DNA from: Amnibacterium kyonggiense
Lineage (GTDB): Bacteria > Actinomycetota > Actinomycetes > Actinomycetales > Microbacteriaceae
DNA length: 64,000 bases
Direction of reading: 5' to 3'
Assembly (NCBI RefSeq): GCF_004364555.1
Contig: NZ_SOAM01000003.1
Location: 434,001 to 498,000, forward strand
Numbering within the stretch: position 1 is the first letter of the stretch; every line of letters begins with the position of its first letter. The translations under genes and the position numbers were made by a program. This document shows positions 35,434-50,226 of this stretch, one piece after another. A model generated the notes under the pieces. It searched no databases. It was given only the letters and a program-made list of their open reading frames with translations, and was not told the DNA's origin.

Positions 35434-36375
35434 TCAGAGCCGGGCGACCGCCGCGAGGACCTCGTCGACGGTGACGGCGGCGAGCGCCGGGTCCGGTCGG
35501 TCCGCGAACGCGTCGCCGTCGCGCACCTCCGCGTGGGTGAGCGCGACGTGCGGACCGGGCGGCGGCCCCCAGCGCTCGGGCGGCACCGGGCCGAAGAGGA
35601 CGACGGAGGGGACGCCGTAGGCGGACGCGAGGTGCCCTGCGCCCGTGTCGGCGGTGACGACGAGCGACGCCTCCGCGATCAGCGCGACGAATCCGAGGAG
35701 CGAGGTCTCCCCCGCGAGCACCCGGGACTCGGGGAGGCGCGCGAGCGCGGCGACCTCCAGCGCCCGCGGCCGCTCGGCGGCGCTGCCGCTGAAGACGACG
35801 CGCCGGCCCGCCGCCTCGAGGGCGGCTGCGACCGCGGCGAACCGGTCGACCTGCCACGCCCGGGACGGGAAGGCGGCGCCCACGTGGAGGACGGCCGACC
35901 CGGGCGCCGGCGAGGCGACCTCCGGTCGCGCGACGGACACGTCGTCCGGGTCGCCCGGCATCCCGAACGCGGCGGTGAGCCGCACCCAGCGCGCGCGCTC
36001 GTGCAGCTCCTCCATCCAGGCGGGGCCGGGTTCGCCCGGCCGGAGCGCGTGCCGCACCACGAGCCGGGCGCCGAGCGCGTCGACCACAGCCGCGGACTCC
36101 GGTCCCCCGCCGTGCAGGTTCACCGCGATGTCGACCGAGCCGGGCTCGACCGGCAGCGGCTCGCCGAGCGCGCCGGTCGGGATCAGGCCGTCGACCGCGT
36201 CGACGAGGTCGACGACCGGCGCGAGCCAGGCGGACGTCGCGAGCAGCAGCCGGTGGTCCGGCATGCTCGCCCGCAGCGCCTTCAGCGCCGGCACCGCGAC
36301 GAGCAGGTCGCCGAGCTGGAGCGCGCGGAACGCGAGCGCGACCGGCCTCGAGTCGGCGTCGATTCCCGCGTTCAC
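35434..36375 (-). CDS. Glycosyltransferase family 9 (heptosyltransferase-like)
   Basis: 313 residues, ADP-heptose:glycan heptosyltransferase fold. The N-terminal domain opens VALAFRALQLGDLLVAVPALKALRASMPDHRLLLATS (the GDLLV loop is the acceptor-side signature). The C-terminal nucleotide domain has VLHVGAAFPSRAWQVDRFAAVAAAL and the ADTGAGHLASAYGVPSVVLFGPVPPERWGPP motif. The GTG at 36375 has GGGAGG upstream. It faces the gmhB-hldE operon as a divergent gene, so it probably uses the ADP-heptose made there. The acceptor is unknown. Confidence 0.87.
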   Translation of the reverse strand: MNAGIDADSRPVALAFRALQLGDLLVAVPALKALRASMPDHRLLLATSAWLAPVVDLVDAVDGLIPTGALGEPLPVEPGSVDIAVNLHGGGPESAAVVDALGARLVVRHALRPGEPGPAWMEELHERARWVRLTAAFGMPGDPDDVSVARPEVASPAPGSAVLHVGAAFPSRAWQVDRFAAVAAALEAAGRRVVFSGSAAERPRALEVAALARLPESRVLAGETSLLGFVALIAEASLVVTADTGAGHLASAYGVPSVVLFGPVPPERWGPPPGPHVALTHAEVRDGDAFADRPDPALAAVTVDEVLAAVARL

Positions 36376-36458
36376 CAGGTGATCCTCCCAGTCCTGACCC
36401 GGAGGGTTGCCAGCGGGTTCCCAGGAGAACGGCTTCCCGTGGCGATAGTCCTTGCTCG

Positions 36459-36995
36459 ATGCCCACCTCGTCCGCCCCGCAGGCGGTGCTCTTCGACCGG
36501 GACAGCACGCTGGTCGTCGACGTGCCCTACAACGGCGATCCCGACCTCGTCCGCCCGATGCCCGGTGCGGTCGAGGCGGTGGCCGCCGTGCGCGCCGCCG
36601 GCGTCCCGACCGGCGTCGTGTCCAACCAGTCGGGCATCGCGCGCGGCCTCATCACCCGGGAGCAGGTCGACGCCGTGAACGCCCGCGTCGACGAGGTCTT
36701 CGGCGCCTTCGACACCTGGCAGGTCTGTCCGCACGGCCCGGAGGACGGCTGCGCCTGCCGCAAGCCCGCGCCCGGGATGGTGCTGCAGGCCGCGGCGGCG
36801 CTCGGCGTCGATCCGGCCCGCGTCGTCGTCATCGGCGACATCGGCGCCGACGTGGGCGCCGCGCACGCCGCGGGCGCGGCGGCGGTGCTCGTACCGACCC
36901 CGATCACGCGCGCCGAGGAGGTCGCCGCGGCATCCGTCGTGGCGCCCGACCTCGCGACCGCGGTGCGCATCGCCCTGGCCGGGGGCGCGGGATGA
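36459..36995 (+). CDS. gmhB: HAD-IIIA phosphatase, GmhB-like (heptose bisphosphate phosphatase)
   Basis: 178 residues. The nucleophile region is FDRDST (D13 and D15; most family members have DRDGT). SNQSGIARG supplies the motif II serine, a zinc loop CPHGPEDGCACRKP carries the cysteines and histidine, and motif IV is VVIGDIGADVGAA. It should remove the 7-phosphate (or 1,7-bisphosphate C7 group) from heptose bisphosphate. First gene of a tightly overlapping operon; a GATAGT hexamer lies 9 bases before the ATG. HisB-N or other HAD substrates are possible, but the neighbours favour heptose. Confidence 0.85.
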   Translation: MPTSSAPQAVLFDRDSTLVVDVPYNGDPDLVRPMPGAVEAVAAVRAAGVPTGVVSNQSGIARGLITREQVDAVNARVDEVFGAFDTWQVCPHGPEDGCACRKPAPGMVLQAAAALGVDPARVVVIGDIGADVGAAHAAGAAAVLVPTPITRAEEVAAASVVAPDLATAVRIALAGGAG

Positions 36996-38008
36996 GACGG
37001 GTGCTCGTCGCCCGGCTCGACAGCATGGGCGACGTCCTCGTGAGCGGCCCGGCCGTCCGCGCCGTCGCGCGGCAGGCGGAGGTCGTGCTCCTCGCCGGCC
37101 CGCAGGGCGCTCCCGCCGCCCGCCTGCTGCCCGGGGTCGCGGAGGTGCGGGTGCTCGCCGCCCCCTGGATCACCCCGGTCGACCGGCCCGTCGACGCCGA
37201 GCTCGTCGCGGAGGTGCAGCGGATCGTGACCGAGACGGGCGTGGACGAGGCGGTCGTGCTCACCTCGTTCCACCAGTCGCCGCTCCCCCTCGCGCTGCTC
37301 CTGCGCCTCGCGGGCGTCCGACGGATCGCCGGCGCCTCCGTCGACGCCGCTGGCGGGCTGCTCGACGTCCGGCTCATCCCGGGCGAGGGCCTGCCGGAGG
37401 ACCTCCCCGAGCCGGTCCGCGCGCTCCGCATCGCGGCGGCGGCCGGTTTCCCGCTGCCGGAGGACGACGAGGGCCGGCTCGCCTCCGAGCTGCCCGCCCG
37501 TCCTGCGGCGGCCGGCACGGGCCCCTACGTCGTCGTGCACCCGGGCGCCGCCGTGCCGGCCCGCGCCTACCCCGCGGAGCGTTGCGCCGACGTCGTGGCG
37601 CTGCTCGCCGCGCGCGGCCACCGCGTGCTCGTGACCGGCGGCCCCGACGAGCGCGCGCTGACCGCGGCCGTCGCCGGGACGGCCGGCGAGGACCTCGGCG
37701 GCGCGCTCGGCCTGGCCGACCTCGGCGCCGTGCTGCGCGACGCGGCGGTCGTCGTGGTCGGGAACACCGGTCCCGCCCACCTCGCGGCCGCGGCAGGCAC
37801 GCCGGTCGTCAGCCTGTTCGCCCCGGTGGTCCCGGCCGTCCGGTGGGCGCCGTACGGCGTGCCGGTCGAGCTGCTCGGCGACCAGCATGCCGCCTGCCGC
37901 GGCTCCCGAGCCCGGGTCTGCCCGGTCGCGGGCCACCCCTGCCTGGCGTCGGTGCCCCCGACCGCCGTCGTCGACGCCGCGGAGCGGCTGATCGGAGCGC
38001 GTTCGTGA
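36992..38008 (+). CDS. Glycosyltransferase family 9 (heptosyltransferase-like)
   Basis: 338 residues, second GT9 enzyme of the cluster. N-terminal [23 protein letters not shown] (GDVLV loop), C-terminal [31 protein letters not shown] and [34 protein letters not shown]. Four conserved cysteines near the end ([16 protein letters not shown]) recall the Cys-containing loop of other heptosyltransferases. The ATG overlaps the gmhB stop in ATGA. It probably transfers heptose onto a wall or secreted glycan on the cytoplasmic membrane face. Confidence 0.88.
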
Positions 38009-39030
38009 AGGTCCTGCTCTGGCACGTGCACGGCGGCTGGACGGACGCCTTCGTCCACGGCCGGCACGAGTACCTGCTGCCGACCACGCCGGCGCGCGAC
38101 GGCTGGGGCCTCGGCCGCGGCGGCCGGGACTGGCCGGCGCGCGAGGTCGCACCGGAGGCGATCCGGGCGGAGGACGTCGACGTCGTCGTCCTCCAGCGCC
38201 CGGAGGAGCTCGCGGAGGCCGAGCGGCTCACCGGCCGGCGCATCGGCGCCGACCTGCCCGCCGTGTACCTCGAGCACAACACGCCGAAGGGCGACGTGCC
38301 GACCTCCGTGCATCCGATGGCCGACCGGTCCGACCTCGACCTCGTGCACGTCACGCACACGAACGCGCTGCTGTGGGACACGGGCTCGACCCGCGCGCGC
38401 GTCGTCGAGCACGGCGTCCGGGACCCGGGCCTCCGCTACACCGGCGCGCTCGAGCGGCTCGCCGCTGTCATCAACGAGCCGGTGCGCCGCTGGCGCGTGA
38501 CCGGCACCGACCTCCTCCCCCGGTTCGCCGCCGAGGCGCCCGTCGACGTCTTCGGGATGAGGACGGAGCTGCTCGCGGGCGCCTTCGAGGGCTCGCCGGC
38601 GATCCACGCCGCGGGCGACCTGCCGCCGCAGCGCATGCACCCCGCGCTCGCCGAGCGCCGCGCGTACCTCCACCCGCACCGCTGGACGTCGCTCGGCCTC
38701 TCGCTCATCGAGGCGATGCAGCTCGGCATGCCGGTGATCGCGCTCGCGGCGACCGAGGCGCCGCGCGCGGTGCCGCCCGAGGCCGGTGCCATCTCGGCCG
38801 ACGTCGCGGAGCTGGTGCGGGAGGCCCGCCGCCTGCTCGACGACCCGGACGAAGCGGTCCGCCGGGGCCGCGTGGCCCGGGAGGTCGCGCTCGCGCGGTA
38901 CGGCCTCGACCGCTTCCTCGCCGACTGGGACGACGTGCTCGACGAGGCGGTAGCACGACGCTCGCGCTTCCGCCAAACGCCCCCGGGGGGGCTTGCGCCC
39001 CCGGGGGGCGCCGTGCAACAAGGGGTGTGA
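38005..39030 (+). CDS. Glycosyltransferase (GT-B, family 1/4-like)
   Basis: 341 residues. N-terminal [45 protein letters not shown] and [20 protein letters not shown] resemble GT1-like enzymes that read a nucleotide-sugar in the C-terminal domain ([37 protein letters not shown], the E-x7-E type signature). The last 20 residues ([16 protein letters not shown]) come from a GC-only repeat and are unlikely to be part of the enzyme. The GTG overlaps the previous stop in GTGA and the next ATG overlaps its stop in TGATG. Confidence 0.82.
38979..39009 (+). repeat. Duplicated G/C hairpin-forming tract at a gene end
   Basis: Two copies of a C5-G6/7 block (38979-38992 and 38997-39009), each a palindrome in itself, encode the Pro/Gly-rich tail of the glycosyltransferase just before the TGATG junction. 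The G7 and C5 runs are slip-prone, and the hairpin could attenuate expression of the downstream genes. Confidence 0.6.
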
Positions 39031-40277
39031 TGAGAATCGCACTGGTGTCCGAACACGCGAGCCCTCTGGCCGTCCTCGGCGGCGTCGACGCGGGCGGGCA
39101 GAACGTCCACGTGGCCGCGCTCGCGACCTCCCTCGCCGCGGCGGGGCACGTCGTCGACGTGTACACGCGGCGCGACGCCCCGGGCCTGCCCGAGCGGGTG
39201 CCGTTCGCCCCGGGCGTGACCGTGATCCCCGTGACGGCGGGACCGGAGGCGGTCGTGCCGAAGGACGACCTCCTCCCGCTCATGGGCGAGTTCGCGGACG
39301 CGCTGGCCGCGGCGTGGATCGCCGACCGGCCCGACGTGGTCCACGGCCACTTCTGGATGTCCGGGCTCGCGTCGCTCGACGCGGCCGGCCGGGTCGACCT
39401 CGCCCTCGGCGGCCACCTGCCGGTCGCCCAGACGTTCCACGCGCTCGGCGTCGTGAAGCGCCGGCAGCAGGGCGCGCGCGACACCTCGCCCGCCGAGCGC
39501 CGCTTCCTCGAACCCGACGTCGCCCGCCGGGCGGACACCGTCGTCGCGACCTGCTCGGACGAGGCGTTCGAGCTGAAGGGGTTCGCCGTGCCCTCCGCCC
39601 GCATCGCGGTCGTGCCGTGCGGGGTCGACACGGCCCACTTCACGCCGGACGGCCCCGTCGCGCCGCGGACCGAGCGCCTCCGGCTGCTCACCGTGAGCCG
39701 CCTCGTGCCGCGCAAGGGCGTCGGGAACGCGATCGAGGCGCTCGGCCGGCTCGTCCGCGCCGGGGTCGACGCGGAGCTCGTCGTCATCGGCGGGGCCGGG
39801 GACGCGGACCACCTCGAGACCGAGCCGGAGACCGAGCGCCTCCGCGCCGTGATCGACGCGGAGGGCCTCCAGGACCGGGTCGTGCTCGCGGGCAGCATCG
39901 AGCACGGCGAGCTGCCCGCCTGGTACCGCAGCGCGGACGTCGTGATCTGCGCGCCCTGGTACGAGCCCTTCGGCATCGTGCCGCTCGAGGCGATGTCGTG
40001 CGGCCGGCCGGTCGTCGCGACGAGCGTCGGCGGCCTCATCGACACCGTCGTCGAGGACGTCACCGGGCTGCACGTGCCGCCCCGCGATCCGGAGGCGCTG
40101 GCGGAGGCGGTCGGCGGGCTCCTGGCCGATCCGCAGCGACGCCGGCGCTACGGTCGGGCGGGGCGCTCGCGCGCCGCGACGCGGTACTCCTGGTCCAGGA
40201 TCGCCGCGGACACCCTGCGCGTCTACGGTCGTCTGACCGATCGCGAACGTCTCGCGCTGCGGACAGGAGAAGCATGA
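39030..40277 (+). CDS. Glycosyltransferase family 4 (retaining GT-B)
   Basis: 415 residues. Opens [30 protein letters not shown], with the GGQNVHV loop of sucrose-synthase/MshA-like GT4 enzymes. The C-terminal domain has [17 protein letters not shown] and the [29 protein letters not shown] signature (E-x7-E). Donor and acceptor are unknown; its place between gmhB and gmhA suggests assembly of the same glycan. Coupled to the previous gene by TGATG and to gmhA by ATGA. Confidence 0.87.
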
Positions 40278-40882
40278 CGACCACCGCTCATGGCATCGAT
40301 ACGGCCGCCGTCGCCGCGCGCCACGTCGCGGCGATCGCACCGACCCTGGCGGCCCTGGAGGCGGAGGCGCCCCGGCTGGCGGCCTGGGGCGAGCACCTCG
40401 CCGACCGCCTCCTCGACGGCGGGCGCCTGCTCGCCGCGGGCAACGGCGGCTCGGCAGCGGAGGCCCAGCACCTCACCGCCGAGCTGGTCGGCCGGTTCGA
40501 CGGCGATCGCCGCGCGTTCAGCGCCGTCTGCCTGCACGGCGACACCTCCGCGCTGACGGCGATCGCGAACGACTTCGGCTACGACGAGGCGTTCGCGCGC
40601 CAGGTGACCGCGCACGGCCGGCCGGGCGACGTGCTCGTCCTGCTCTCGACGAGCGGCACGAGCACGAACCTCGTCCGCGCCGCCGAGGCCGCCCGCGCGG
40701 CGGAGGTGACCGTCTGGGCGATGACCGGCCCCGGCCCGAACCCGCTCACCGACGCCGCCGACGACGCCCTCCTCCTGCCCGGGGTCGGGGCCAACGTGCA
40801 GGAGGCGCAGCTCGTCGCCGTACACGCGCTCTGCCGCGTGTTCGACGCGGTCGTGCGCGACCGGATCGGAGCGACCCGATGA
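40274..40882 (+). CDS. gmhA: SIS domain sedoheptulose-7-phosphate isomerase (GmhA-like)
   Basis: 202 residues. The SIS-fold sugar-phosphate site is [22 protein letters not shown] (near residue 55) followed by [13 protein letters not shown], exactly the two GmhA blocks, with a C-terminal [16 protein letters not shown] helix supplying the conserved catalytic histidine. It should isomerise sedoheptulose 7-phosphate to D-glycero-D-manno-heptose 7-phosphate, the first step of nucleotide-heptose synthesis. Four-base overlaps with both neighbours. An AGGAGA site lies upstream of its ATG. Confidence 0.9.
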
Positions 40883-42237
40883 ACGCCGTCGTGGTGGGCG
40901 ACCTGCTGCTCGACGTGGACGTGGAGGGCGACGTCGCGCGCCTCACGCCGTACGCCCCCGTGCCGGTGGTCGACGTGGTGTCCGAGACGAAGCGCGCCGG
41001 CGGCGCCGGGCTCGTCGCGACGTTCCTCAAGCGGGACGGGCACGACGTCACGCTCGTCACGGCGCTGTCGGAGGACGCCCGCGCGGCCGAGCTGCCGCCG
41101 CTGCTCGACGGCATCGCGCTCGTCGCGGGCCGCTCGCCCTCCGGCACGGTCGTGAAGACCCGCCTCCGGAGCCGTGAGCAGCCGATCGCGCGCATCGACG
41201 AGGGCTCCGCGACGCCGGAGGCCCCGGAGATCACGGACGCGATGCTCGCGGCGATCGCCGCAGCGGACCTCGTGGTGGTCGCGGACTACGGCCGCCGGCT
41301 CACCGAGCAGCCCGCGATCCGCGCCGCGCTCGAGGACGCGGCCGGCCGCGTGCCGGTCGTGTGGGATCCGCACCCCCGCGGCGCGGTCCCCGTGCCGGGC
41401 GTCGTCGTCACGCCGAACCTCGGCGAGGCGCACGGCTTCACCGGCGTCGAGGGCCGTGGCGTGCCGTTCGCCGACGAGGCCGCGCTGCGCCTGTTCACCG
41501 CGTGGCGCTCCGCCGCGGTCGTCGTGACGATGGGCGCGCACGGCGCACTGCTCCGCACCTCCGTCGACGGGCTGCCGCTCGTCGCCTCCGGCCCCGTCGT
41601 CAGGGACGCGGACGTGAACGGCGCCGGCGACCGGTTCGCGTCGGCGCTCGCCGTCGCGCTCGGCTCCGGCCGACTCCCGAGCGACGCCGTGCAGGACGCG
41701 GTGCTCGTGACCGCCGGCTTCCTCGCGGACGGCGGCGTCGCGATGCTCGAGGCGACCGCGCCCGTGCCGCTGCCCGGCGCGGACCACGAGGCCCTCGCCG
41801 TCGTCGAGCGCGTCCGCGCGTCCGGCGGCACGGTCGTCGCGACGGGCGGCGTGTTCGACCTCATCCACGCGGGGCACGCCCGCACGCTCTCCGCCGCCCG
41901 GGCGCTCGGCGACTGCCTGATCGTGCTGCTGAACTCGGACGAGTCCGTCAAGCGCCTGAAGGGGCCGGAGCGGCCGATCATGACCGCGGCCGACCGCGTC
42001 GACCTCCTCGAGGCCCTCGAGGTCGTCGACGGCGTCATCGTCTTCGGCGAGGACACCCCCGTCGAGGCGATCAAGCGCGTCCGCCCGGACATCTGGGTCA
42101 AGGGCGGCGACTACAACGCCGCGACCCTGCCCGAGGCGGCCGTCATCAAGGAATGGGGCGGCCGCGCCGTCACCGTCCCGTTCTTCCCCGGCCGCTCGAC
42201 CACGCGGCTCGCCGCCGCGATCCAGCGCGTCTCCTAG
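40879..42237 (+). CDS. Bifunctional heptose kinase/adenylyltransferase, HldE-like (first copy)
   Basis: 452 residues with both HldE modules. The N-terminal ribokinase-fold kinase (about 1-300) has the GAGD catalytic motif with D251; the C-terminal nucleotidyltransferase (about 318-452) has the HAGH motif at 330-333 and KGPERP/VKGGDYN signatures. It would phosphorylate heptose 7-phosphate at C1 and then add AMP. Compared with the second copy its kinase opening is divergent (VVVGDLLLDVDVEGDVARLTPYAPVPVV, missing the usual SREAP/R motif), so its substrate may differ. Coupled to gmhA by ATGA. Confidence 0.87.
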   Translation: MNAVVVGDLLLDVDVEGDVARLTPYAPVPVVDVVSETKRAGGAGLVATFLKRDGHDVTLVTALSEDARAAELPPLLDGIALVAGRSPSGTVVKTRLRSREQPIARIDEGSATPEAPEITDAMLAAIAAADLVVVADYGRRLTEQPAIRAALEDAAGRVPVVWDPHPRGAVPVPGVVVTPNLGEAHGFTGVEGRGVPFADEAALRLFTAWRSAAVVVTMGAHGALLRTSVDGLPLVASGPVVRDADVNGAGDRFASALAVALGSGRLPSDAVQDAVLVTAGFLADGGVAMLEATAPVPLPGADHEALAVVERVRASGGTVVATGGVFDLIHAGHARTLSAARALGDCLIVLLNSDESVKRLKGPERPIMTAADRVDLLEALEVVDGVIVFGEDTPVEAIKRVRPDIWVKGGDYNAATLPEAAVIKEWGGRAVTVPFFPGRSTTRLAAAIQRVS

Positions 42238-42286
42238 CTCCTCCCCCGCGTCCCCGACGCTCCGCTCCACCGATCGAAGGACACCC

Positions 42287-42994
42287 ATGCCCATCGCCTC
42301 CACCACGCCCACGCCGCTCGGCCGGACCCTGATCACGGGCGGCGCCTCCGGGCTCGGCCTGGCGGTCGCGGACGCGGTCGCCGCCGCCGGCGGCACCCCG
42401 ATCGTCGTCGACCTCGCGGTCGAGGGCAGCGCCTACACCGCCTACCAGGGCGACGTCACCGACACCCGCGGCGTGGAAGCGCTCGTCGCCCGGATCGCGG
42501 AGGAGCAGGGCGGCCTCGACGCCGTCGTCACCGCGGCCGGGATCGACAAGCCGGGCCGCCTCGACGAGATCCCGGGCGACGTCTGGGAGCGGGTCGTCGC
42601 CGTGAACCTGCTCGGCACCGTCGCGGTGGTCCGCGCCGCGCTGCCGGCGCTGTACGAGACCCACGGCCGCGTCGTCACGGTCTCGTCGTCGCTCGGCGTC
42701 CGCGCCGTGTCGGACGCGACCGCCTACTCCGCCTCCAAGTTCGGCGTGATCGGCTTCAGCCGCGCCCTCGCGGCGGAGACGCGCGGGCAGATCGGCGTGA
42801 CGACCCTCATCCCCGCCGGCATGAAGACGCGCTTCTTCGACGGCCGCACCGCCCAGTACGCGCCGGGCGAGGACGCGGACCTGAACGACCCGGCGAACGT
42901 CGCCGCGGCGGTCGTCTTCGCGCTGCAGAGCCCGCGCGGCTCGGAGATCCGCGAGATCTCCGTCATGCACGAGGCCGAGCCCAGCTGGCCCTGA
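42287..42994 (+). CDS. Short-chain dehydrogenase/reductase
   Basis: 235 residues. Classical SDR with the cofactor loop ITGGASGLGLAVA (TGxxxGxG), NNAG equivalent VTAAGID, and the catalytic Ser...YxxxK (SSSLGVR, YSASK). It oxidises or reduces a hydroxyl/keto group with NAD(P). It is 49 bases after hldE with GAAGGA upstream, so it may be the last gene of the glycan operon, but it is a short SDR and not an HldD-type epimerase, which is an extended SDR. Confidence 0.85.
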   Translation: MPIASTTPTPLGRTLITGGASGLGLAVADAVAAAGGTPIVVDLAVEGSAYTAYQGDVTDTRGVEALVARIAEEQGGLDAVVTAAGIDKPGRLDEIPGDVWERVVAVNLLGTVAVVRAALPALYETHGRVVTVSSSLGVRAVSDATAYSASKFGVIGFSRALAAETRGQIGVTTLIPAGMKTRFFDGRTAQYAPGEDADLNDPANVAAAVVFALQSPRGSEIREISVMHEAEPSWP

Positions 42995-43033
42995 CCCGCC
43001 CTGCGCGGCCGCCGCGGGCGGACGCTTGCGCCC

Positions 43034-43121
43034 TGAGCACTTCGGCAGGCTGATCCACCTCCGGCAGGCCGCGGGGCGCCCCTCAGCCTGCCGAAGCGCG
43101 CACAGCCTGCTCAAGTGCTCA
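43034..43121. repeat. 88-base palindromic repeat, copy 1
   Basis: Starts and ends with TGAGCAC/GTGCTCA-type ends and contains repeated GCAGGC modules, so either strand can fold onto itself: the first 20 bases match the reverse complement of the last 20 with few mismatches, and a perfect 14-base stem (43040-43053 with 43083-43096) lies inside. It is the same length as, and clearly related to, copy 2. Lies in the non-coding gap after the SDR gene. Confidence 0.75.
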
Positions 43122-43137
43122 GCCCGGCCCGCGCACG

Positions 43138-43225
43138 TGAGCACCTCAGCAGGCCGGTCCGCCTTCAGCAGGCCCTGTGGTGCCCCACAGCCCGCCGAGG
43201 TGCGGACGGCCTGCCGGAGTGCTCA
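43138..43225. repeat. 88-base palindromic repeat, copy 2
   Basis: Direct, diverged copy of the previous 88-base unit (roughly three quarters identical by eye, most differences being transitions), beginning 104 bases after it. Its 3' half is duplicated again just downstream. The stretch 42995-43277 contains no gene, only these repeats. Confidence 0.75.
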
Positions 43226-43303
43226 GGAGGAGGCGTGGGCGCCTCGCCTCCGAGGTGCGGACGGCCTGCCGGAGTGCTCAGGAGGAGGCGTGGGCGCCTC
43301 GCC
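43195..43303. repeat. Tandem 54-base direct repeat at the pnuC 3' end
   Basis: Copies at 43195-43248 and 43250-43303 are identical and separated by one base (period 55). They contain the 3' end of palindrome copy 2. The second copy runs into the end of pnuC, so the last residues of PnuC (through the stop at 43278) are encoded by the repeat. Confidence 0.85.
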
Positions 43304-43982
43304 GCGAAGCGAGGGCTAAGCCCTCGACGACGACCGCGGAGGACGGGCGCACGCGCTGGTTCCGCCAGACGAAGAACCCGGTCAGCGTGAAGGCGCCGTA
43401 GACGACGTACATGAGCCCCGTCGCGTAGTACCCCGCGGAGAACAGCAGGGGCACGCCGACGACGTCGACCGCGACCCAGATCAGCCAGAACTCGACCCAG
43501 CCCTTCGCCATGCCGTACGTGGCGAGGAGCGAGCCCATGAAGATCCACGCGTCGCTCCACTGCGGCGCGTAGGAGCCGAGCGCGGTGAACACCGGCGTGA
43601 GGATCGCGGTGCCGCCGACCATGCCGACGATCAGGCCGACCCGCTGGCGCCACGTCGCCCAGTGCGGCGTGATCGTCGTGACCTCGGCGTCGTTCCGGTG
43701 CGTCCACCGGTACCAGCCGTAGACGCTCACGACGATGAAGACGATCTGCCGCCCGGCCTGGCCGAGGAGGTTGACCGTGCTCGCGTCGCCGAAGGCGGAC
43801 CCGAGGAACACGGTGAAGAGCAGCACGTTGCCGGCGATGCCGACCGGCCACGCCCACACCTTGCGGCGCATCCCGCCGAGCGCGGACGCCAGGCCGAAGA
43901 GGTTGCCGAGCAGCTCCCGCCAGTAGATCGACTGCGCGCCGAAGTGGATCTGCGCGTCGAACAGCCACCGGATCACGTCCAC
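43278..43982 (-). CDS. pnuC: Nicotinamide riboside transporter PnuC
   Basis: 234 residues, seven-helix SWEET-like facilitator for nicotinamide riboside, an NAD precursor. Family signatures: YWRELLGNLFGLASALGGMRRKVWAWPVGIAGNVLLF, the conserved WxxW/N substrate residues in GWYRWTHRN, and GMAKGWVEFWLIWVAVDVVGVPL. The GTG at 43982 has AGGAGG upstream. The C-terminal tail (ALASRRGAHASS) is supplied by the tandem repeat. No NAD-regulatory gene is adjacent. Confidence 0.93.
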   Translation of the reverse strand: MDVIRWLFDAQIHFGAQSIYWRELLGNLFGLASALGGMRRKVWAWPVGIAGNVLLFTVFLGSAFGDASTVNLLGQAGRQIVFIVVSVYGWYRWTHRNDAEVTTITPHWATWRQRVGLIVGMVGGTAILTPVFTALGSYAPQWSDAWIFMGSLLATYGMAKGWVEFWLIWVAVDVVGVPLLFSAGYYATGLMYVVYGAFTLTGFFVWRNQRVRPSSAVVVEGLALASRRGAHASS

Positions 43983-44101
43983 GCGGGCCTCCTCAGGTCG
44001 ACCCGTGCAGCGCTCGGCGACGCCTGTGAATTCCCGGAGACGGCGAGCGGCGTGCGGAGGGCGTCCTCGACGGGTCCAGGGACCGCGCCTAGCCTCGCCG
44101 G

Positions 44102-44821
44102 ATGCTCCTCCAAGCAGCGCTGAACGGCAGGCGGACGAGGGCCGAGCACGCGGCCGTGCCGATCACCCCGGCCGAGCTGCAGGCCGATGCGCTGGCCTGC
44201 GGGGCCGCCGGCGCGCAGGGCTTCCACGTCCACCCGCGCGACACGGACGGCTTCGAGCGGCTCGACCCCGAGTGGGTCGACGCGGCCGCGACGGCCGTGC
44301 ACGACGTGAGCCGGTGGCCGGTCAGCGTCAGCACGGGCGCCTGGATCCAGGGCGAGCAGCGCCACCGCGCGGCGCTCCTCTCCCGCTGGACGGGACCGGA
44401 CGCCGCGAGCGTCAACCTGTCGGAGGACGAGGCGCTCGACACGATCCGCACGCTCCTCGGCCGCGGGATCCGCGTCGAGGCCGGCGTCTGGTCGGTGGAG
44501 GACGCCGAGCTGCTGCTCCGCAGCGGGCTCGCGGACCGCATCGAACGCGTGCTGGTCGAACTGCTCGATCCTCCGGGGACGGACGTCCTCGCGGTCGCCG
44601 AGGAGATCCACGCGCGCCTCGACCGCGGCGACCTGCTCGTGCCCCGGCTGCAGCACGGGGAGGGCGAGCACGCCTGGACGGCCCTCGAGGACGCGGTCCG
44701 CCGCGGCCTCGACACCCGGATCGGCCTGGAGGACGTGCTGGTGCTCCCGGACGGGTCGCCCGCACCGGACAACGCCGCGCTCGTCGCCGCGGCCCGGGAG
44801 CTCGGCGCCGGGGGCGACTGA
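44102..44821 (+). CDS. BKACE family protein (beta-keto acid cleavage enzyme, DUF849)
   Basis: 239 residues, shorter than the usual 270-310. TIM-barrel start QAALNGRRTRAEH and the zinc-binding HVHPRD (H42, H44) are clear, with SVSTGAWI and the acidic RIGLEDVLVLPDG near the C-terminus. The family condenses or cleaves beta-keto acids with acetyl-CoA; Kce of lysine fermentation is the prototype. No lysine-fermentation or acyl-CoA genes are nearby, so the substrate is unknown. Starts 6 bases after TAGCCT (44090-44095), probably leaderless. Confidence 0.82.
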   Translation: MLLQAALNGRRTRAEHAAVPITPAELQADALACGAAGAQGFHVHPRDTDGFERLDPEWVDAAATAVHDVSRWPVSVSTGAWIQGEQRHRAALLSRWTGPDAASVNLSEDEALDTIRTLLGRGIRVEAGVWSVEDAELLLRSGLADRIERVLVELLDPPGTDVLAVAEEIHARLDRGDLLVPRLQHGEGEHAWTALEDAVRRGLDTRIGLEDVLVLPDGSPAPDNAALVAAARELGAGGD

Positions 44822-44823
44822 GC

Positions 44824-44982
44824 TCAGGGCTCGCCGTCCCCCCGCGCCTCGCGCCGGGCGTTGGAGGCCTCGCCGGAGGACTGCTGCACGTTCCGGCTCC
44901 GGACCGTCCGCACCACGATCATCGTGCCGATGAGCAGGATCATCGCGACGAGCACGATCGGGAGGACGATGTCGATGGCCAC
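44824..44982 (-). CDS. Small single-helix membrane protein (52 residues)
   Basis: An uninterrupted short ORF from GTG 44982 encoding AIDIVLPIVLVAMILLIGTMIVVRTVR, a near-perfect membrane helix followed by a basic stop-transfer, then a polar tail (SRNVQQSSGEASNARREARGDGEP). Its end faces the BKACE gene. No family recognised. The helix-plus-charged-tail composition is unlikely by chance. Ribosome site weak. Confidence 0.6.
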   Translation of the reverse strand: MAIDIVLPIVLVAMILLIGTMIVVRTVRSRNVQQSSGEASNARREARGDGEP

Positions 44983-45072
44983 ACGCCAGCGTCCCCCGGC
45001 CCGCTCCTCGGGCCGACCCGATCCAGGCGACTGCCACCCACCGCGCCGCTGATCCTCAGGGCGCGAGCGGGT

Positions 45073-46167
45073 TCAGGGCGCGAGCAGGGCCCGCACGTCC
45101 TCGAGGACGTCCTCCACCGGGACGTCCGCGACGTAGGACGGGTCGTGCTCGCACCGCTCCGCGGTCCAGCCGACCTGCGTCGCGTCCCGACCGCACACCG
45201 GGCAGCGGGTGATCCGGCCGAGCCGGATGCGGTGCCGCCCGCGCCCGAACGGCATCGCGTTGATCGTGTTGCCGAACACGAAGATCCCGACCGTCCGCGC
45301 ACCGACGGCCTGCGCCAGGTGGCGCGGCCCGCTGTCGTTGGCGAGTACGACGTCCGCCGCGGCGAGGACGCCGAGCAGCTGCACGAGGTCGAGGGTCCCG
45401 GCGATGGATCGGACGAGCTCCTGCTCGCCGGCCCCGAGCACGGCGCGCGCGGCGGCGACGACCCGGTCGGCGAGCGCCGCCTCGGACGGGTCGCCGACGA
45501 CGACGGTGCGGACGCCCTCGGCGGCGACGGCCGCCGCGACCGCGCCGAAGCGCTCCGCCGGCCAGTGCCGGCGCGGGTCTGTCGCCCCGGGATGCAGCAC
45601 GACGACGGGCCGGTCGCCGAGCACGCGGCGGCCGGTCTCCCGCTCCGCCGCCGAGACCGGCAGGACGGGCTCGAGGTCCGCGGGCGCCGCGCCGGCGAGG
45701 CCCGCCACCTCGAGCCAGCGCAGGACCTCGTGCTGGAAGTAGTCGTAGTGGAGCGTCCGCTCGAGCGGTGTCGCGTCGGGCGTCGCGGTGCCGACGGTGT
45801 GCCGGGCGCCGAGCCGCAGGAGGAACGGGTTCGCGTGCCGCCCGCCGCCGTGCAGCTGCACCGCGAGGTCGACGGGTACGACCCGGGCGAGGAACGCCGC
45901 CACGGCCGCCTCGTCGGTCTCGTCGCCGCGTACGCCGACCGCCGGCGGCAGCACCACGACCTCGTCGACGAGGCCGCGGCCCTCGAGGAGCACCGCGTGC
46001 GCCGGGGAACCGAGCAGGGTCAGCTCGGCGTCGGGATGCGCGGCCCGGAGGGCGGCGATCGCCGGCAGCGCGAAGACGAGGTCGCCGAGCGCGCCGCCGC
46101 GGAGGACCGCGATCCGCCGCACGTCGGCGAACGGCTCGGCGAGCGGGGCGACGACCGGGGCGGGCAC
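45073..46167 (-). CDS. Glycosyltransferase family 9 (heptosyltransferase-like)
   Basis: 364 residues, third GT9 enzyme in the region. IAVLRGGALGDLVFALPAIAALRAAHPDAELTLLGS is the acceptor domain loop; VVVLHPGATDPRRHWPAERFGAVAAAV and LANDSGPRHLAQAVGARTVGIFVFGN form the nucleotide-sugar domain. A C-terminal block RCPVCGRDATQVGWTAERCEHD resembles a zinc- or cysteine-rich extension. The GTG at 46167 is the best start; the upstream frame lacks better codons. It is divergent from the aldehyde dehydrogenase-hldE2 operon. Confidence 0.85.
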   Translation of the reverse strand: MPAPVVAPLAEPFADVRRIAVLRGGALGDLVFALPAIAALRAAHPDAELTLLGSPAHAVLLEGRGLVDEVVVLPPAVGVRGDETDEAAVAAFLARVVPVDLAVQLHGGGRHANPFLLRLGARHTVGTATPDATPLERTLHYDYFQHEVLRWLEVAGLAGAAPADLEPVLPVSAAERETGRRVLGDRPVVVLHPGATDPRRHWPAERFGAVAAAVAAEGVRTVVVGDPSEAALADRVVAAARAVLGAGEQELVRSIAGTLDLVQLLGVLAAADVVLANDSGPRHLAQAVGARTVGIFVFGNTINAMPFGRGRHRIRLGRITRCPVCGRDATQVGWTAERCEHDPSYVADVPVEDVLEDVRALLAP

Positions 46168-46300
46168 GGCGACGATCCTGCCCGACCGTGCTCGGCCGTT
46201 TTCCGGTCGACACCCAGGTGCCCCCGGGGGCACGACCGCTAACCTCGCAGGGCCCCCGGACGCCCACCGGTGCGCACCGACCGGAGGGGGACCATCCCGC

Positions 46301-47680
46301 ATGCCCGCAGGCCTCAGCACGCGCACGATCGAGATCCTCGACCCCGCCACGGGTGAGCCGGTCGGCTCCCTCCCCGTCGCCGACGAGGCAGAGGCGGCGG
46401 CGGCCGTCCGCCGCGCCGCCGCCGCCTTCCCGGCGTGGGCGGCGACGCCGCCGGGCGAGCGCGGGCTCCGCCTCCGTGCCGCGGCGCAGGCGCTCGCCGC
46501 CCGCGCGGACGAGGTCGCCGCGATGAACACGCGTGAGACCGGCAAGTCGGCGGCCGATGCGGCCGGCGGCGTCGAGGCCGCGGTGAACACGCTCCTGCAG
46601 TACGCGGAGCTCGGACCGCTGCACCGCGGCAAGCGCCTCCGCGGCGGCTGGGACGCGGTGGACGTCGCGACGCCGCAGCCCCGCGGCGTGGTCCTCGCGC
46701 TCACCCCCTGGAACGACCCGGTCGCCGTCGCCGCGGGCCTGCTCGGCGCCGCGATCGTCTCCGGCGACACCGTCGTCCACAAGCCGAGCGAGCGGAGCCC
46801 GCACACGGGCGCGCTCGTCGACGCGATCCTCGCCGCCGAGCTGCCCGAGGGCGTGCTCGTGCACGTGACGGGCGACGGGACCACCGGCGCCGCGCTCGCC
46901 GACCAGCCGGGGCTCGGCGCGATCGCGCACGTCGGCTCGACCGCGACGGGCCGCGCGCTGGCGCTCGTCGGCGCCGCTCACGACGTGCACGTCATCCGCG
47001 AGAACGGCGGCAACGACCCGCTCGTCATCGACGCTGGCGTCGACCCGGTCTGGGCGGCCGGGCAGGCCGCGCTCGGGTCCTTCGCGAACGCGGGCCAGAT
47101 CTGCACCGCCGTCGAGCGCATCTACGTCCACCGCGCGATCGCGGAGCCGTTCCTCAGCGCCCTCGTCGCTGAGGCGGACACGTGGACGCGGGGCTCCGGT
47201 CAGCCGCTCGTCGACGCGCGGATGCGGGACGCGGTCGCCGCGCAGGTCGACCAGGCGGTCGCCGCGGGCGCGAAGGCGCTCGCCGGCGGCTCGGTGCCGG
47301 ACGGCCCGGGCACGCACTACCCGGCCACCGTGCTCGCCGACGTCCCGGCGGGCGTCCAGGTGCTGACCGAGGAGACGTTCGGCCCGGTGGCGCCGGTCGT
47401 CGTCGTGGACGACTTCGACGAGGGCCTCCGGCTCGCCGCCGCCGACGTCTACGGCCTCGCCGCGACCGTGCTCACGCCCGACATGGCGCACGCGCACCGC
47501 GCGGCCGCGCTGCTGCCCGTCGGCACGGTGAAGGTGAACGCTGTGTTCGGGGGCGCCCCCGGCGGCAGCGCCCAGCCTCGCGGTGCGAGCGGGTCCGGGT
47601 ACGGCTACGGCCCGGAGCTGCTCGACGAGATGACGACGACGACCGTGGTGCACTTCGGCCTGCCGGGCGGCTCCCGGTGA
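46301..47680 (+). CDS. Aldehyde dehydrogenase family protein
   Basis: 459 residues. NAD(P)-dependent ALDH with TPWNDPVAVAAGLLGAAIVSGDTVVHKPSE, catalytic glutamate E234 (RENGGNDP) and catalytic cysteine C268 (NAGQICTA). The substrate is not predictable. The ATG at 46301 has GGAGGGGG upstream, and a -10-like TAACCT lies near 46241, giving a leader of about 50 bases. Its stop overlaps hldE2 in GTGA, so it belongs to the heptose operon. Confidence 0.9.
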   Translation: MPAGLSTRTIEILDPATGEPVGSLPVADEAEAAAAVRRAAAAFPAWAATPPGERGLRLRAAAQALAARADEVAAMNTRETGKSAADAAGGVEAAVNTLLQYAELGPLHRGKRLRGGWDAVDVATPQPRGVVLALTPWNDPVAVAAGLLGAAIVSGDTVVHKPSERSPHTGALVDAILAAELPEGVLVHVTGDGTTGAALADQPGLGAIAHVGSTATGRALALVGAAHDVHVIRENGGNDPLVIDAGVDPVWAAGQAALGSFANAGQICTAVERIYVHRAIAEPFLSALVAEADTWTRGSGQPLVDARMRDAVAAQVDQAVAAGAKALAGGSVPDGPGTHYPATVLADVPAGVQVLTEETFGPVAPVVVVDDFDEGLRLAAADVYGLAATVLTPDMAHAHRAAALLPVGTVKVNAVFGGAPGGSAQPRGASGSGYGYGPELLDEMTTTTVVHFGLPGGSR

Positions 47681-49134
47681 GCGACGCGCAGGACGAGCTG
47701 CTCGTCGACCAGGTGCTCGAGTTCCGCGGCGGCCCGATCGTCGTGGTCGGCGACCTGCTCCTTGACCGGTGGATCTCCGGCACCGCGGACCGGCTCAGCC
47801 GGGAGGCGCCCGCGCCGGTCGTGCGCGTGCGCGGCCGGGAGGACGCCCCGGGCGGCGCCGCGAACACCGCGATGAACCTGGCCGCGCTCGGTGCGGCCGT
47901 GCGGCTCGTCGGGCTGGTCGGCGACGACGAGCCCGGGTCGGCGCTGCTCGCGCTCCTCGAGGCCGCCGGGGTCGACGTCTCCGGCGTCGTTCGGGGCAGC
48001 GGCCCGACGACGGTGAAGACCCGCGTCTCGGCCGCCGGCCAGGTGCTCATGCGCTTCGACGAGGGCGCGACGGCGGATGCCGCCGATGGGGACGCGGTGG
48101 CAGCCGCGCTCCGCGGCGCGCTGCCCGGCAGCGCCGCCGTGCTGGTCTGCGACTACGGCATGGACGCGGCGGGCGCGGCGGTGCGGACCGCGCTCGCCGA
48201 GGACCGGGGCGCCGTGCCGCTCGTCCTCGACGCGCACGACCTCGCCCCCTGGGCCGCCGTCCGGCCCGATGTGGTCACGCCGAACGCGGGCGAGACCGAG
48301 CGCCTGCTCGGCCGCGCGCTCGGCGACGACCGGGTCCGTTCGGCCACCGAGGCGGGCGCCGAGCTGCGCCAGCGCACCGGCGCCGCCGCCGTGATCGTCA
48401 CGCTGGACCGGGACGGCACCGTCGTCCACGCCGACGGCGGCCCGAGCCGCACGCTCGCCAAGCCCGCCCCCGACGCGAACGCGAACGGCGCCGGCGACAC
48501 CTTCGCGGCCGCCCTCGTGCTCGCCCTCGCGGCCGGGATGGACGTGCACCGGGCCGCCCGGCTCGGGCAGCTCGCGGCGGACGTCGTCACCCGCCTGCCC
48601 GGCACCTCCGTCTGCACCGCGAACGACCTCACCGCGTCGCTCGCGGGCGGCGCGCGGCTGCTCGACGAGCGCGCGCTCGTCGCCGCGCTCGGGGTCGCCC
48701 GTGCGGCCGGCAAGCGGATCGTGTTCACGAACGGCTGCTTCGACGTCCTCCACCGCGGCCACACCGCCTACCTGAAGCAGGCGCGGGCGCTCGGCGACCT
48801 GCTCGTCGTCGCGGTGAACGACGACGAGTCCACGCGTCGCCTCAAGGGCCCCGGCCGGCCGGTGAACCCGGTCGCCGATCGCGCGGGCGTCGTCGCGGAG
48901 CTCGCCTGCGTCGACTTCATCACCGTGTTCTCGACGGACACCCCGATCCCGCTGCTCGAGACCATTGCGCCCGACGTCTACGCGAAGGGCGGCGACTACC
49001 TGCCCGAGATGCTCGCGGAGACCCCGGTCGTGGAGGCGAACGGCGGCGTCGTGCGCATCCTCGACTACATCAGCCCGCACTCGACGAGCGACCTGATCGC
49101 CCGCGTGCGCGCCGCCGGGGTCGCCGGTGCCTAG
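47677..49134 (+). CDS. hldE: Bifunctional heptose kinase/adenylyltransferase, HldE-like (second copy)
   Basis: 485 residues, the more canonical of the two HldE-type proteins. The kinase module has VVVGDLLLDRWISGTADRLSREAPAPVV and the catalytic NGAGDTF (D274); the transferase module has HRGH at 359-362 and NDDESTRRLKGPGRPVNP. It would convert heptose 7-phosphate to the 1-phosphate and then ADP-heptose, together with the GmhB phosphatase. The start GTG overlaps the ALDH stop. The E. coli enzyme is about 477 residues, so this is full length. Confidence 0.92.
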   Translation: MSDAQDELLVDQVLEFRGGPIVVVGDLLLDRWISGTADRLSREAPAPVVRVRGREDAPGGAANTAMNLAALGAAVRLVGLVGDDEPGSALLALLEAAGVDVSGVVRGSGPTTVKTRVSAAGQVLMRFDEGATADAADGDAVAAALRGALPGSAAVLVCDYGMDAAGAAVRTALAEDRGAVPLVLDAHDLAPWAAVRPDVVTPNAGETERLLGRALGDDRVRSATEAGAELRQRTGAAAVIVTLDRDGTVVHADGGPSRTLAKPAPDANANGAGDTFAAALVLALAAGMDVHRAARLGQLAADVVTRLPGTSVCTANDLTASLAGGARLLDERALVAALGVARAAGKRIVFTNGCFDVLHRGHTAYLKQARALGDLLVVAVNDDESTRRLKGPGRPVNPVADRAGVVAELACVDFITVFSTDTPIPLLETIAPDVYAKGGDYLPEMLAETPVVEANGGVVRILDYISPHSTSDLIARVRAAGVAGA

Positions 49135-49999
49135 CCGGCGGACCGCCCGCGACTGGGCCCGGTCCGCCGAGCGGGCCCGGCCTGTCGTCGACGTGCTGCT
49201 GCCGACCTCCGGCCGCGTCGCGGAGCTCGCCGTGGTGCTCGCCGGCCTCGCCGCGCAGGACGACCCGCCCTTCCGCATCATCGTGAGCGACCAGTCCGAC
49301 GACCACGCGATGGCGGACACGCCCGCCGTGCAGGCGATGCTGCGCGTCCTCCGGGCGCAGGGCCGGGACGTCCGGGTCCTGCAGCACCTCCCCCGCCGCG
49401 GGATCGCCGAGCACCGCGCCTTCCTGCTCGAGCAGGCCACCGCCGAGTACGTGCTCTTCCTCGACGACGACGTGTGGCCGGAGCCGGGGCTGCTCGCGAC
49501 GCTGCACCGCGCGATCGAGGAGCTCGGCTGCGGCCTCGTGGGTTCCGCGCAGCAGGGGCTGTCGTACCTGGAGGACGTCCGCCCCCACGAGCAGGCGCCG
49601 TTCACGGCCTGGTCGGAGGGGGTGCGGCCGGAGCGGCTGCGCAAGGACTCCCCCGGTACGGAGCGCTGGACGCTGCACAACGCCGCGAACCTCACGCACA
49701 TCGCCGCGCGGACGGAGCTGCCCGAGGAGGGCTGGCTGCCGTACCGCGTCGCGTGGCTCGCGGGCTGCGTGCTCTACCGCCGCTCCGCGCTCGAGGAGGT
49801 CGGCGGCTTCGACTTCTGGCGCGACCTGCCCGCCACGATCGGCGGCGAGGACGTCGCCGCGCAGTGGAAGGTCATGGAGCGCTTCGGCGGGGCCGGCGTG
49901 CTGCCCTCCGGCGCCGTGCACCTGGAGGCGCCGACCTCCATCCCCGATCGATCCGTGGACGCGGCTGCGGCCGTGTTCGCGCACGAGACGGCCGGCTGA
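49127..49999 (+). CDS. Glycosyltransferase family 2
   Basis: 290 residues, GT-A fold: VDVLLPTSGRVAELAVVLAGLAAQDDPPFRIIVSDQSDD, the metal-binding DDDVW (D-x-D) at YVLFLDDDVWPEPGLL, and the late GCVLYRRSALEEVGGFDFWRDLPATIGGEDVAAQWKV acceptor region. The 8-base overlap with hldE indicates coupling, so it probably adds a sugar to the same glycan. The GTG at 49127 is the first start in frame. Confidence 0.88.
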   Translation: MPSRRTARDWARSAERARPVVDVLLPTSGRVAELAVVLAGLAAQDDPPFRIIVSDQSDDHAMADTPAVQAMLRVLRAQGRDVRVLQHLPRRGIAEHRAFLLEQATAEYVLFLDDDVWPEPGLLATLHRAIEELGCGLVGSAQQGLSYLEDVRPHEQAPFTAWSEGVRPERLRKDSPGTERWTLHNAANLTHIAARTELPEEGWLPYRVAWLAGCVLYRRSALEEVGGFDFWRDLPATIGGEDVAAQWKVMERFGGAGVLPSGAVHLEAPTSIPDRSVDAAAAVFAHETAG

Positions 50000-50028: not shown

Positions 50029-50226
50029 ATGGCCGACATGCCGAACCCCATCGAGGTCCAGAAGCACCTGGGCGGGATGGACTACCCGGTGACGAAGGAC
50101 ACGATCCTGTCGACGGCGAAGGAGTCGGGCGCGGATCAGTCGATCCTCGACGCGCTGGGCAACATCCCGGACCGCGAGTACGACGGCCCGAACGCGATCA
50201 GCCACGAGCTCAGCGCCAACAACTGA
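50029..50226 (+). CDS. DUF2795 domain protein
   Basis: 65 residues. IEVQKHLGGMDYPVTKDTILSTAKESGADQSILDALGNIPDREYDGPNAISHEL matches the DUF2795 fold (helical, unknown function), widespread in actinobacteria. Preceded by GAGGAGAGG. It lies at the end of the heptose cluster but is not obviously related to it. A GC-rich hairpin terminator follows at 50239. Confidence 0.88.
   Translation: MADMPNPIEVQKHLGGMDYPVTKDTILSTAKESGADQSILDALGNIPDREYDGPNAISHELSANN

Follow-up and report, generated by a model that had tools for sequence, protein, structure and literature searches.

A two-module cluster of predicted heptose and glycosyltransferase genes in Amnibacterium kyonggiense and its likeness to the Streptomyces cwg operon

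Gene content and conservation of the cluster

The window analysed here, a stretch of 64,000 nucleotides from Amnibacterium kyonggiense (contig NZ_SOAM01000003.1, positions 434,001 to 498,000), carries at 35434-49999 two gene modules that comprise twelve conserved genes and two intervening ones (Table 1). Genes were placed by open frames, and families were assigned by NCBIfam and Pfam profile matches, which are homology calls. In module 1, genes B to G (GmhB, glycosyltransferase family 9 (GT9), GT4-type, GT4, GmhA and HldE1) lie on one strand with overlaps of 1-4 bases, a short-chain dehydrogenase (SDR) gene begins 49 bases after HldE1, and a further GT9 gene (GT9a) lies upstream, pointing away, which gives the layout GT9a, GmhB-GT9b-GT-GT4-GmhA-HldE1-SDR. 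Module 2 has GT9c running leftward and aldehyde dehydrogenase (ALDH)-HldE2-GT2 running rightward with overlaps of 4-8 bases, so that overlaps of 1-8 bases are found within both plus-strand runs. An earlier note on this DNA, made from the sequence letters, had described GmhA, GmhB, two HldE-type proteins, three GT9 and three other transferases in tight overlapping runs, and both the families and the overlaps confirm that inventory. All three GT9 proteins (A, C and L) exceed the PF01075 gathering score and are predicted heptosyltransferase-like enzymes, and gene B carries the Zn-type motif CPHGPEDGCAC. A Foldseek search with the model of D returned BshA, PimB', MshA and sucrose-phosphate synthase at a template-modelling score of about 0.7, a generic GT4 answer.

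We compared the cluster with the best 80 loci of at least 486 confirmed HldE1 relatives, with flanks of up to 10 kb; this sample favours close relatives, and a gene may be absent from a locus because the contig ends there. The full set B-C-D-E-F-G was present in 75 of the 80 loci and ran collinearly along a single strand in 67, spanning 25 genus labels, and all twelve genes stood together in 24 (counts for each gene are in Table 1). Because the cluster is conserved in these loci of relatives, it appears very unlikely to have arisen by chance. Module 2 largely travels with HldE2: GT9c was present in 44 of the 54 loci with HldE2 versus 2 of the 26 without it, and the GT2 gene in 31 of 54 versus none of 26. 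ALDH (39/54 with HldE2, 15/26 without) and SDR (54/54 and 21/26) occur either way. The genes for PnuC and a BKACE protein, which lie between the modules at 43278-44821, were rejected as parts of the system on their counts and are confined to Amnibacterium-like loci. One such locus, L009, lies on a contig labelled as an Acidobacteria metagenome-assembled genome, encodes Amnibacterium-like proteins (HldE1 78% and PnuC 95% identical to those of the window) and has no module 2 matches; its label is probably a binning error.

Table 1. Features of the cluster and its surroundings in the window, with bit scores against profile cut-offs and the number of relatives' loci (of 80) that hold each gene; pLDDT, predicted local distance difference test.
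Feature	Position	Strand	Basis and remarks	Loci of 80
AlkZ-like DNA glycosylase	34192-35376		adjoins GT9a	
A: GT9 glycosyltransferase (GT9a), heptosyltransferase-like	35434-36375	-	PF01075 83 bits; divergent from main operon	66
A/B gap, 83 bases	36376-36458		between divergent genes; SigB-type promoter site in relatives, none in window	
B: GmhB-like D,D-heptose 1,7-bisphosphate 7-phosphatase, HAD	36459-36995	+	NF006506 119.5 bits, cut-off 178	77
C: GT9 glycosyltransferase (GT9b)	36992-38008	+	PF01075 73.5 bits	75
D: GT4-type (GT-B fold) glycosyltransferase	38005-39030	+	Pfam family; model pLDDT 92.4	77
E: GT4, MshA/sucrose-phosphate-synthase type	39030-40277	+	TIGR03449 217.6 bits, below cut-off 462.5	78
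F: GmhA, sedoheptulose 7-phosphate isomerase	40274-40882	+	TIGR00441 146 bits, below cut-off 209	79
G: HldE1 kinase-nucleotidyltransferase	40879-42237	+	244 bits, cut-off 521	80
H: short-chain dehydrogenase (SDR)	42287-42994	+	family match	75
PnuC	43278-43982		between modules; membrane protein	2
BKACE gene	44102-44821		between modules	3
L: GT9 glycosyltransferase (GT9c), module 2	45073-46167	-	PF01075 93.8 bits (scanned with one extra codon); GTG start at 46167	46
M: aldehyde dehydrogenase (ALDH)	46301-47680	+	Cys and Glu motifs; 4-base overlap with HldE2	54
N: HldE2, canonical bifunctional heptose kinase/nucleotidyltransferase	47677-49134	+	NF008454 364 bits, cut-off 521	54
O: GT2-like glycosyltransferase	49127-49999	+	weak NCBIfam matches, best 50.5 bits	31
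DUF2795 gene	50029-50226		adjoins cluster; 10 members in locus set, window included	

The heptose pathway in the genome and across the class

The genome (3.7 Mb in 6 contigs, 99.99% complete) has Amnibacterium as its nearest named relatives. Its single GmhA match is the one in this cluster, its two full-length HldE copies are accompanied by six weaker, partial matches, and three of its six GT9 genes lie here. Two further GT9 genes are found at about 277-280 kb of contig C1 (L102:6954-9746), separated by one small gene and with no HldE called nearby. No HldD over cut-off was detected genome-wide: the best of seven matches reached 95.6 of 274.6 bits, and the other six, which were not identified, 68.5 bits or less. 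We rejected the best match as a true HldD, because the protein is a GalE (323 bits against a GalE cut-off of 262.3). The short SDR (H) is not favoured as an HldD substitute either, as it matches adh_short and many FabG-like models and has a weak Epimerase match only. LpxC had no match in the whole genome. The lipopolysaccharide (LPS)-type ADP-L,D-heptose pathway is therefore not what we encounter here, with neither HldD over cut-off nor LpxC, and the cluster is not an LPS pathway. The earlier note had seen no HldD in this region and had supposed a probable monoderm actinobacterium without LPS; the whole-genome search extends the former observation, and both the nearest relatives and the lack of an LpxC match agree with the latter.

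We then counted HldD at E ≤ 1e-50 and heptose nucleotidyltransferase at E ≤ 1e-30 in 100 genomes of the family and 246 of the class. For HldD, no more than 19 first-look candidates per genome were scored in the family and no more than 8 in the class, and among the controls of this search 3 of 14 genomes were positive (E. coli, Caulobacter and Haloferax), two of them over cut-off. Heptose nucleotidyltransferase was present in 14 of the 100 family genomes, about 11 of which have two copies as read from the results table, and in 61 of the 246 class genomes (54 over its cut-off; at least two copies in 19 of the 61). HldD was found in none of the 100 and none of the 246 sampled genomes. Because heptose genes occur across the class while HldD does not appear in any of these 246 genomes, its absence looks like a rule for these actinobacteria and no peculiarity of Amnibacterium. 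The earlier note was right in recognizing a heptose locus, and such a locus is not unusual among actinobacteria. Actinobacteria are also said to possess tridomain nucleoside-diphosphate (NDP)-heptose synthetases, reportedly the subject of work by Tang in 2022.

Two HldE clades and a promoter motif in relatives

A tree with E. coli HldE at its root placed the 81 HldE1 proteins (80 loci and the window) in one clade with a support of 0.905 and the 55 HldE2 proteins in another with a support of 0.994. The catalytic residues are intact in both copies, and production of NDP-heptose is predicted for them: the kinase GAGD Asp is kept in 81/81 HldE1 and 55/55 HldE2, the two His of the transferase HxGH motif in 81/81 and 81/81 HldE1 and in 54/55 and 55/55 HldE2, and the Lys of KGGDY is present in 81/81 HldE1. 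The Asn of the GGxxN motif, which we take to be a sugar-pocket residue with its function carried over from ribokinase, is kept in all 55 HldE2 and in E. coli HldE, and all 81 HldE1 have Leu there. This sharpens to one residue the divergent kinase start that had been remarked on in the first HldE, and the proposed specialisation of the two copies is supported by the separate clades, the pocket residue and the co-occurrence of module 2 genes.

The published SigB promoter consensus, as given in the accessible part of PMC8346170, is GTTTNN-N12-14-GGGWA. We scanned 43 loci in which A and B are divergent, with the expected counts derived from 651 further intergenic regions in these loci. The motif lay upstream of B on the B strand in 24 of the 43 (8 genus labels) versus 1.1 expected and once on the other strand, although these 24 loci are not independent, 18 being Arthrobacter or Paenarthrobacter. 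Three versions of the pattern, the last with the published consensus, gave 26, 25 and 24 loci of 43 (the last with one more on the other strand). In the gap between L and M or L and N, a SigB-type motif was found on the GT9c strand in 13 of 43, for an expectation of 1.6, and never on the opposite strand. A sigma gene of one cluster occurs in 36 of the 80 loci (13 genus labels), and in 33 of these it precedes the operon and lies on the plus strand; four members were scanned, and a SigB/F/G-type model was the best for all, with one over cut-off. Loci with the promoter had the sigma neighbour in 20 of 24 cases versus 6 of 19 without it (Fisher p 0.0013, not corrected for kinship). SigB-type promoters before module 1 in relatives are new here. 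Other recurrent neighbours in relatives are possibly linked to stress, namely ChaB (16 loci), DUF3618 (8) and topoisomerase IB (8), and a hemerythrin-like gene, named from a reading of its sequence, occurs in 10 loci (coordinates of such neighbours include L067:6520-6915, L038:18823-19398 and L039:1277-2227).

Candidate product and comparison with known systems

Judging from the predicted enzymes, the cluster very probably makes an activated seven-carbon sugar that is incorporated into a glycan. The reading that we favour, and hold to be probable though well short of certain, is a heptose-glycan system of the type represented by the Streptomyces cwg operon, in which transferases build NDP-D,D-heptose into a glycan, most likely one at the cell surface or one that serves as the headgroup of a glycolipid. 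We infer the substrates, nucleotide, acceptor, location and regulation as follows. The first four pathway steps would yield D,D-heptose nucleotides and, without HldD, the sugar would be kept in the D,D form; the GT9 proteins (A, C and L), the GT4 proteins (D and E) and the GT2-like protein (O) would then assemble a heptose-containing glycan, the flipping and anchoring of which would fall to proteins encoded elsewhere. HldE2, GT9c and GT2 may constitute an additional branch that is optional and uses a donor or a linkage of its own. A SigB-type stress promoter would drive module 1 in relatives; the corresponding Streptomyces operon is a target of sigma-E, the envelope-stress factor.

Several observations weigh against this reading. 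No flippase, polymerase, exporter or lipid-carrier enzyme was recognized by family among the twelve conserved genes. The heptose enzymes and transferases score under the whole-protein NCBIfam equivalog cut-offs, while both HldE nucleotidyltransferase domains lie roughly at theirs of 181.5 (178.8 and 179.2; in another scan 181.4-181.7 and 182.1). The altered kinase pocket of HldE1 may mean another sugar, and the GT9 family has known activities besides heptosyltransfer, as stated in the part of PMC12113805 seen. The likeness to cwg was drawn from loci of other Streptomyces and from published gene names rather than from S. coelicolor sequence, and that SCO6182, named a 'dehydratase', is a GmhB is something we infer. 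A SigB-type promoter is absent from the window even under a looser pattern, no sigma gene adjoins the cluster, and no SigB/F/G factor over cut-off was found in the window's genome (best 129.8 of 234.35 bits). Stress control is therefore a statement about relatives.

These points bear on where the product resides. The twelve conserved proteins belong to soluble-enzyme families and no exporter is encoded, and 'wall polymer' is for this reason an unproven reading of the cluster; of the earlier proposal of a heptosylated wall or secreted polymer made from ADP-heptose, the pathway genes are supported, and ADP as the nucleotide and a wall or secreted location are putative. A soluble cytosolic heptose oligosaccharide or glycoside, serving as a stress solute or storage glycan, would accommodate the same families: the GT4 protein that resembles sucrose-phosphate synthase would act on a small phosphorylated acceptor, GT9 proteins would extend it, and SDR (in 75/80 loci) and ALDH (54/80) would oxidize an alcohol to an acid. 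In the PDB, E is nearest to sucrose-phosphate synthase (6kih, 218 bits) before MshA (3c4q, 159 bits), both of which act on small soluble acceptors, and the residue aligned with a Lys that we take to be a phosphate-site residue of MshA is Lys in 76 of 81 sequences. The SigB-type promoters are also in keeping with a stress solute, as are two published cases of induction by salt, that of cwgA in S. coelicolor (PMC13011467) and that of a Frankia gene annotated as a heptosyltransferase, whose membership in this cluster was not checked (PMC5563000). Profile searches, however, place E nearer MshA (217.6 bits) than sucrose-phosphate synthase (102 bits), and the second phosphate-site residue, an Arg, is found in just 10 of 81 sequences; we rejected the Lys and Arg pair as proof of a phosphorylated acceptor, since the Lys is conserved and the Arg is not. 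Nor does hydropathy help. In a Kyte-Doolittle scan no 19-residue mean exceeded 1.9 in any of the twelve (ALDH, 1.89), a weak test given that the membrane protein PnuC reached only 2.00, and only A, B, C and E among the twelve had uncharged hydrophobic 19-mers, one or two each, compared with 3, 7 and 7 in the PnuC, AI-2E and HlyIII-type controls. The scan separates poorly and was dropped as proof of solubility, a statement that rests on the families. LPS-core clusters likewise consist largely of soluble transferases, and a CsaB-like pyruvyltransferase lies beside the Streptomyces version. On balance, a cytosolic product seems unlikely. Its fuller form, a stress-switched and wholly cytosolic factory in which HldE1 (CDP-, UDP- or ADP-heptose) and HldE2 (ADP-heptose) supply two donors for a soluble heptose oligosaccharide on a small phosphorylated acceptor, oxidized by SDR and ALDH, strikes us as decidedly unlikely; if true, the product would represent a stress glycan of a class new in bacteria, hidden across many actinobacteria, with the Streptomyces cwg operon among its sources.

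Other readings change the sugar, the acceptor or the purpose. That the kinase/nucleotidyltransferases act on another sugar phosphate, with no heptose made, is suggested by the scores under cut-off and the replacement of the GGxxN Asn by Leu in HldE1, but we regard it as improbable: GmhA, a Zn-type GmhB and three GT9 genes share the location, window HldE2 matches E. coli HldE at all 10 positions compared beyond the STTR motif discussed below (and differs at the two compared within it), and HldE1 invariably keeps the GAGD, HxGH and KGGDY residues. Protein heptosylation, with GT9 or GT2 proteins modifying an autotransporter- or S-layer-like acceptor, could draw on the known bacterial role of ADP-heptose (excerpts of PMC10948575 and PMC11573728); it is quite improbable, as families present in at least 8 of the 80 loci include no evident acceptor protein and six transferases exceed the need of a single-sugar modification. 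Heptose-bearing secondary metabolites of the septacidin or hygromycin kind exist, and a pathway of this sort is the reading that we least expect, given a cluster found in many genera and no evident scaffold-forming gene among families of at least 8 loci.

The heptose-glycan system that we favour would matter beyond this genome. About a quarter of class genomes (61/246) encode a heptose nucleotidyltransferase and HldD was found in none of the 246, yet for the cwg operon of Streptomyces, the version known best, the accessible text of PMC6767563 gives only a predicted cell-wall glycan as the product. Knock-outs, and a growth condition in which to look for the heptose, can be chosen from the 12-gene layout, the pairing of each HldE clade with particular transferases and the SigB-type promoters. 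As NDP-heptoses are immune agonists (PMC11573728, in part), which actinobacteria can make them is of wider interest. Among the titles and abstract openings searched, which mostly do not cover subscription papers, none reported a heptose glycan structure tied to these genes.

Compared with the Gram-negative LPS pathway to ADP-heptose (GmhA, HldE, GmhB, HldD), the window encodes the first four steps, whereas its genome lacks HldD over cut-off and LpxC and has two HldE paralogues. A second comparison is with NTP-promiscuous enzymes: the (F/L)XXGRSTT motif (STTR5) is reported, in the part of PMC11573728 available, for heptose nucleotidyltransferases that accept several NTPs. Window HldE1 carries it in strict form, as FFPGRSTT, and window HldE2 does not; among HldE1 the strict form occurs in only 18 of 81 and a looser form in 70, whereas neither occurs in the 55 HldE2. 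As 17 of 55 HldE2 have Arg in the STTR5 column, the motif is only suggestive and was dropped as a clean divider of the two copies. The tridomain NDP-heptose synthetases, as far as the title of Tang 2022 conveys, likewise unite isomerase, kinase and nucleotidyltransferase functions in actinobacteria, whereas the window has GmhA and HldE1 as separate genes with a 4-base overlap.

The closest counterparts are in Streptomyces, where loci L087 (12 genes) and L086 (11 genes called) hold a run built on the same core, in the order epimerase/dehydratase, NodU-type carbamoyltransferase, GT2-like, GmhB, GT9, D, E, GmhA, HldE1, GT9 and GT2-like (one final GT2-like gene called in L086 and two in L087, the label being our reading). 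Both share with the window the core order GmhB-GT9-D-E-GmhA-HldE1. The carbamoyltransferase and a CsaB-like pyruvyltransferase downstream (172 of 213 bits) would fit a decorated surface glycan; these two and the epimerase were profile-tested in L087 alone. Carbamoyltransferase-type genes occur in 12 loci of the HldE1 set (for example L086:2982-4616 and L041:14158-15753), of which the member in L087 was profile-tested. A parallel is the carbamoylated heptose of the Pseudomonas LPS core.

The cwg operon (SCO6179-SCO6190) comprises 12 genes, is a target of sigma-E and has a cell wall glycan as its predicted product (PMC6767563); no word beginning 'heptos' occurs in that paper. The excerpted part of PMC5839063 names SCO6180 and SCO6181 as transferases, SCO6182 as a 'dehydratase', SCO6183 and SCO6185 as transferases, SCO6186 as a phosphoheptose isomerase, SCO6187 as bifunctional and SCO6188 as a transferase, and module 1 of the window matches the order of the names published for SCO6182, SCO6183 and SCO6185-SCO6188. 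The two differ at the edges. The epimerase and carbamoyltransferase genes with which the Streptomyces run begins do not adjoin the window's cluster (a comparison of neighbourhoods, the genome not being searched); GT9a is divergent in the window, whereas the Streptomyces GT9 lies downstream; and the window's relatives have SigB-type promoters where Streptomyces has a sigma-E target, sigma-E promoters not having been searched for here. The window has SDR, ALDH and the HldE2 module in addition. The cluster is thus a known system of unsolved chemistry, seen here with a second HldE module and, in its relatives, with a stress-type promoter.

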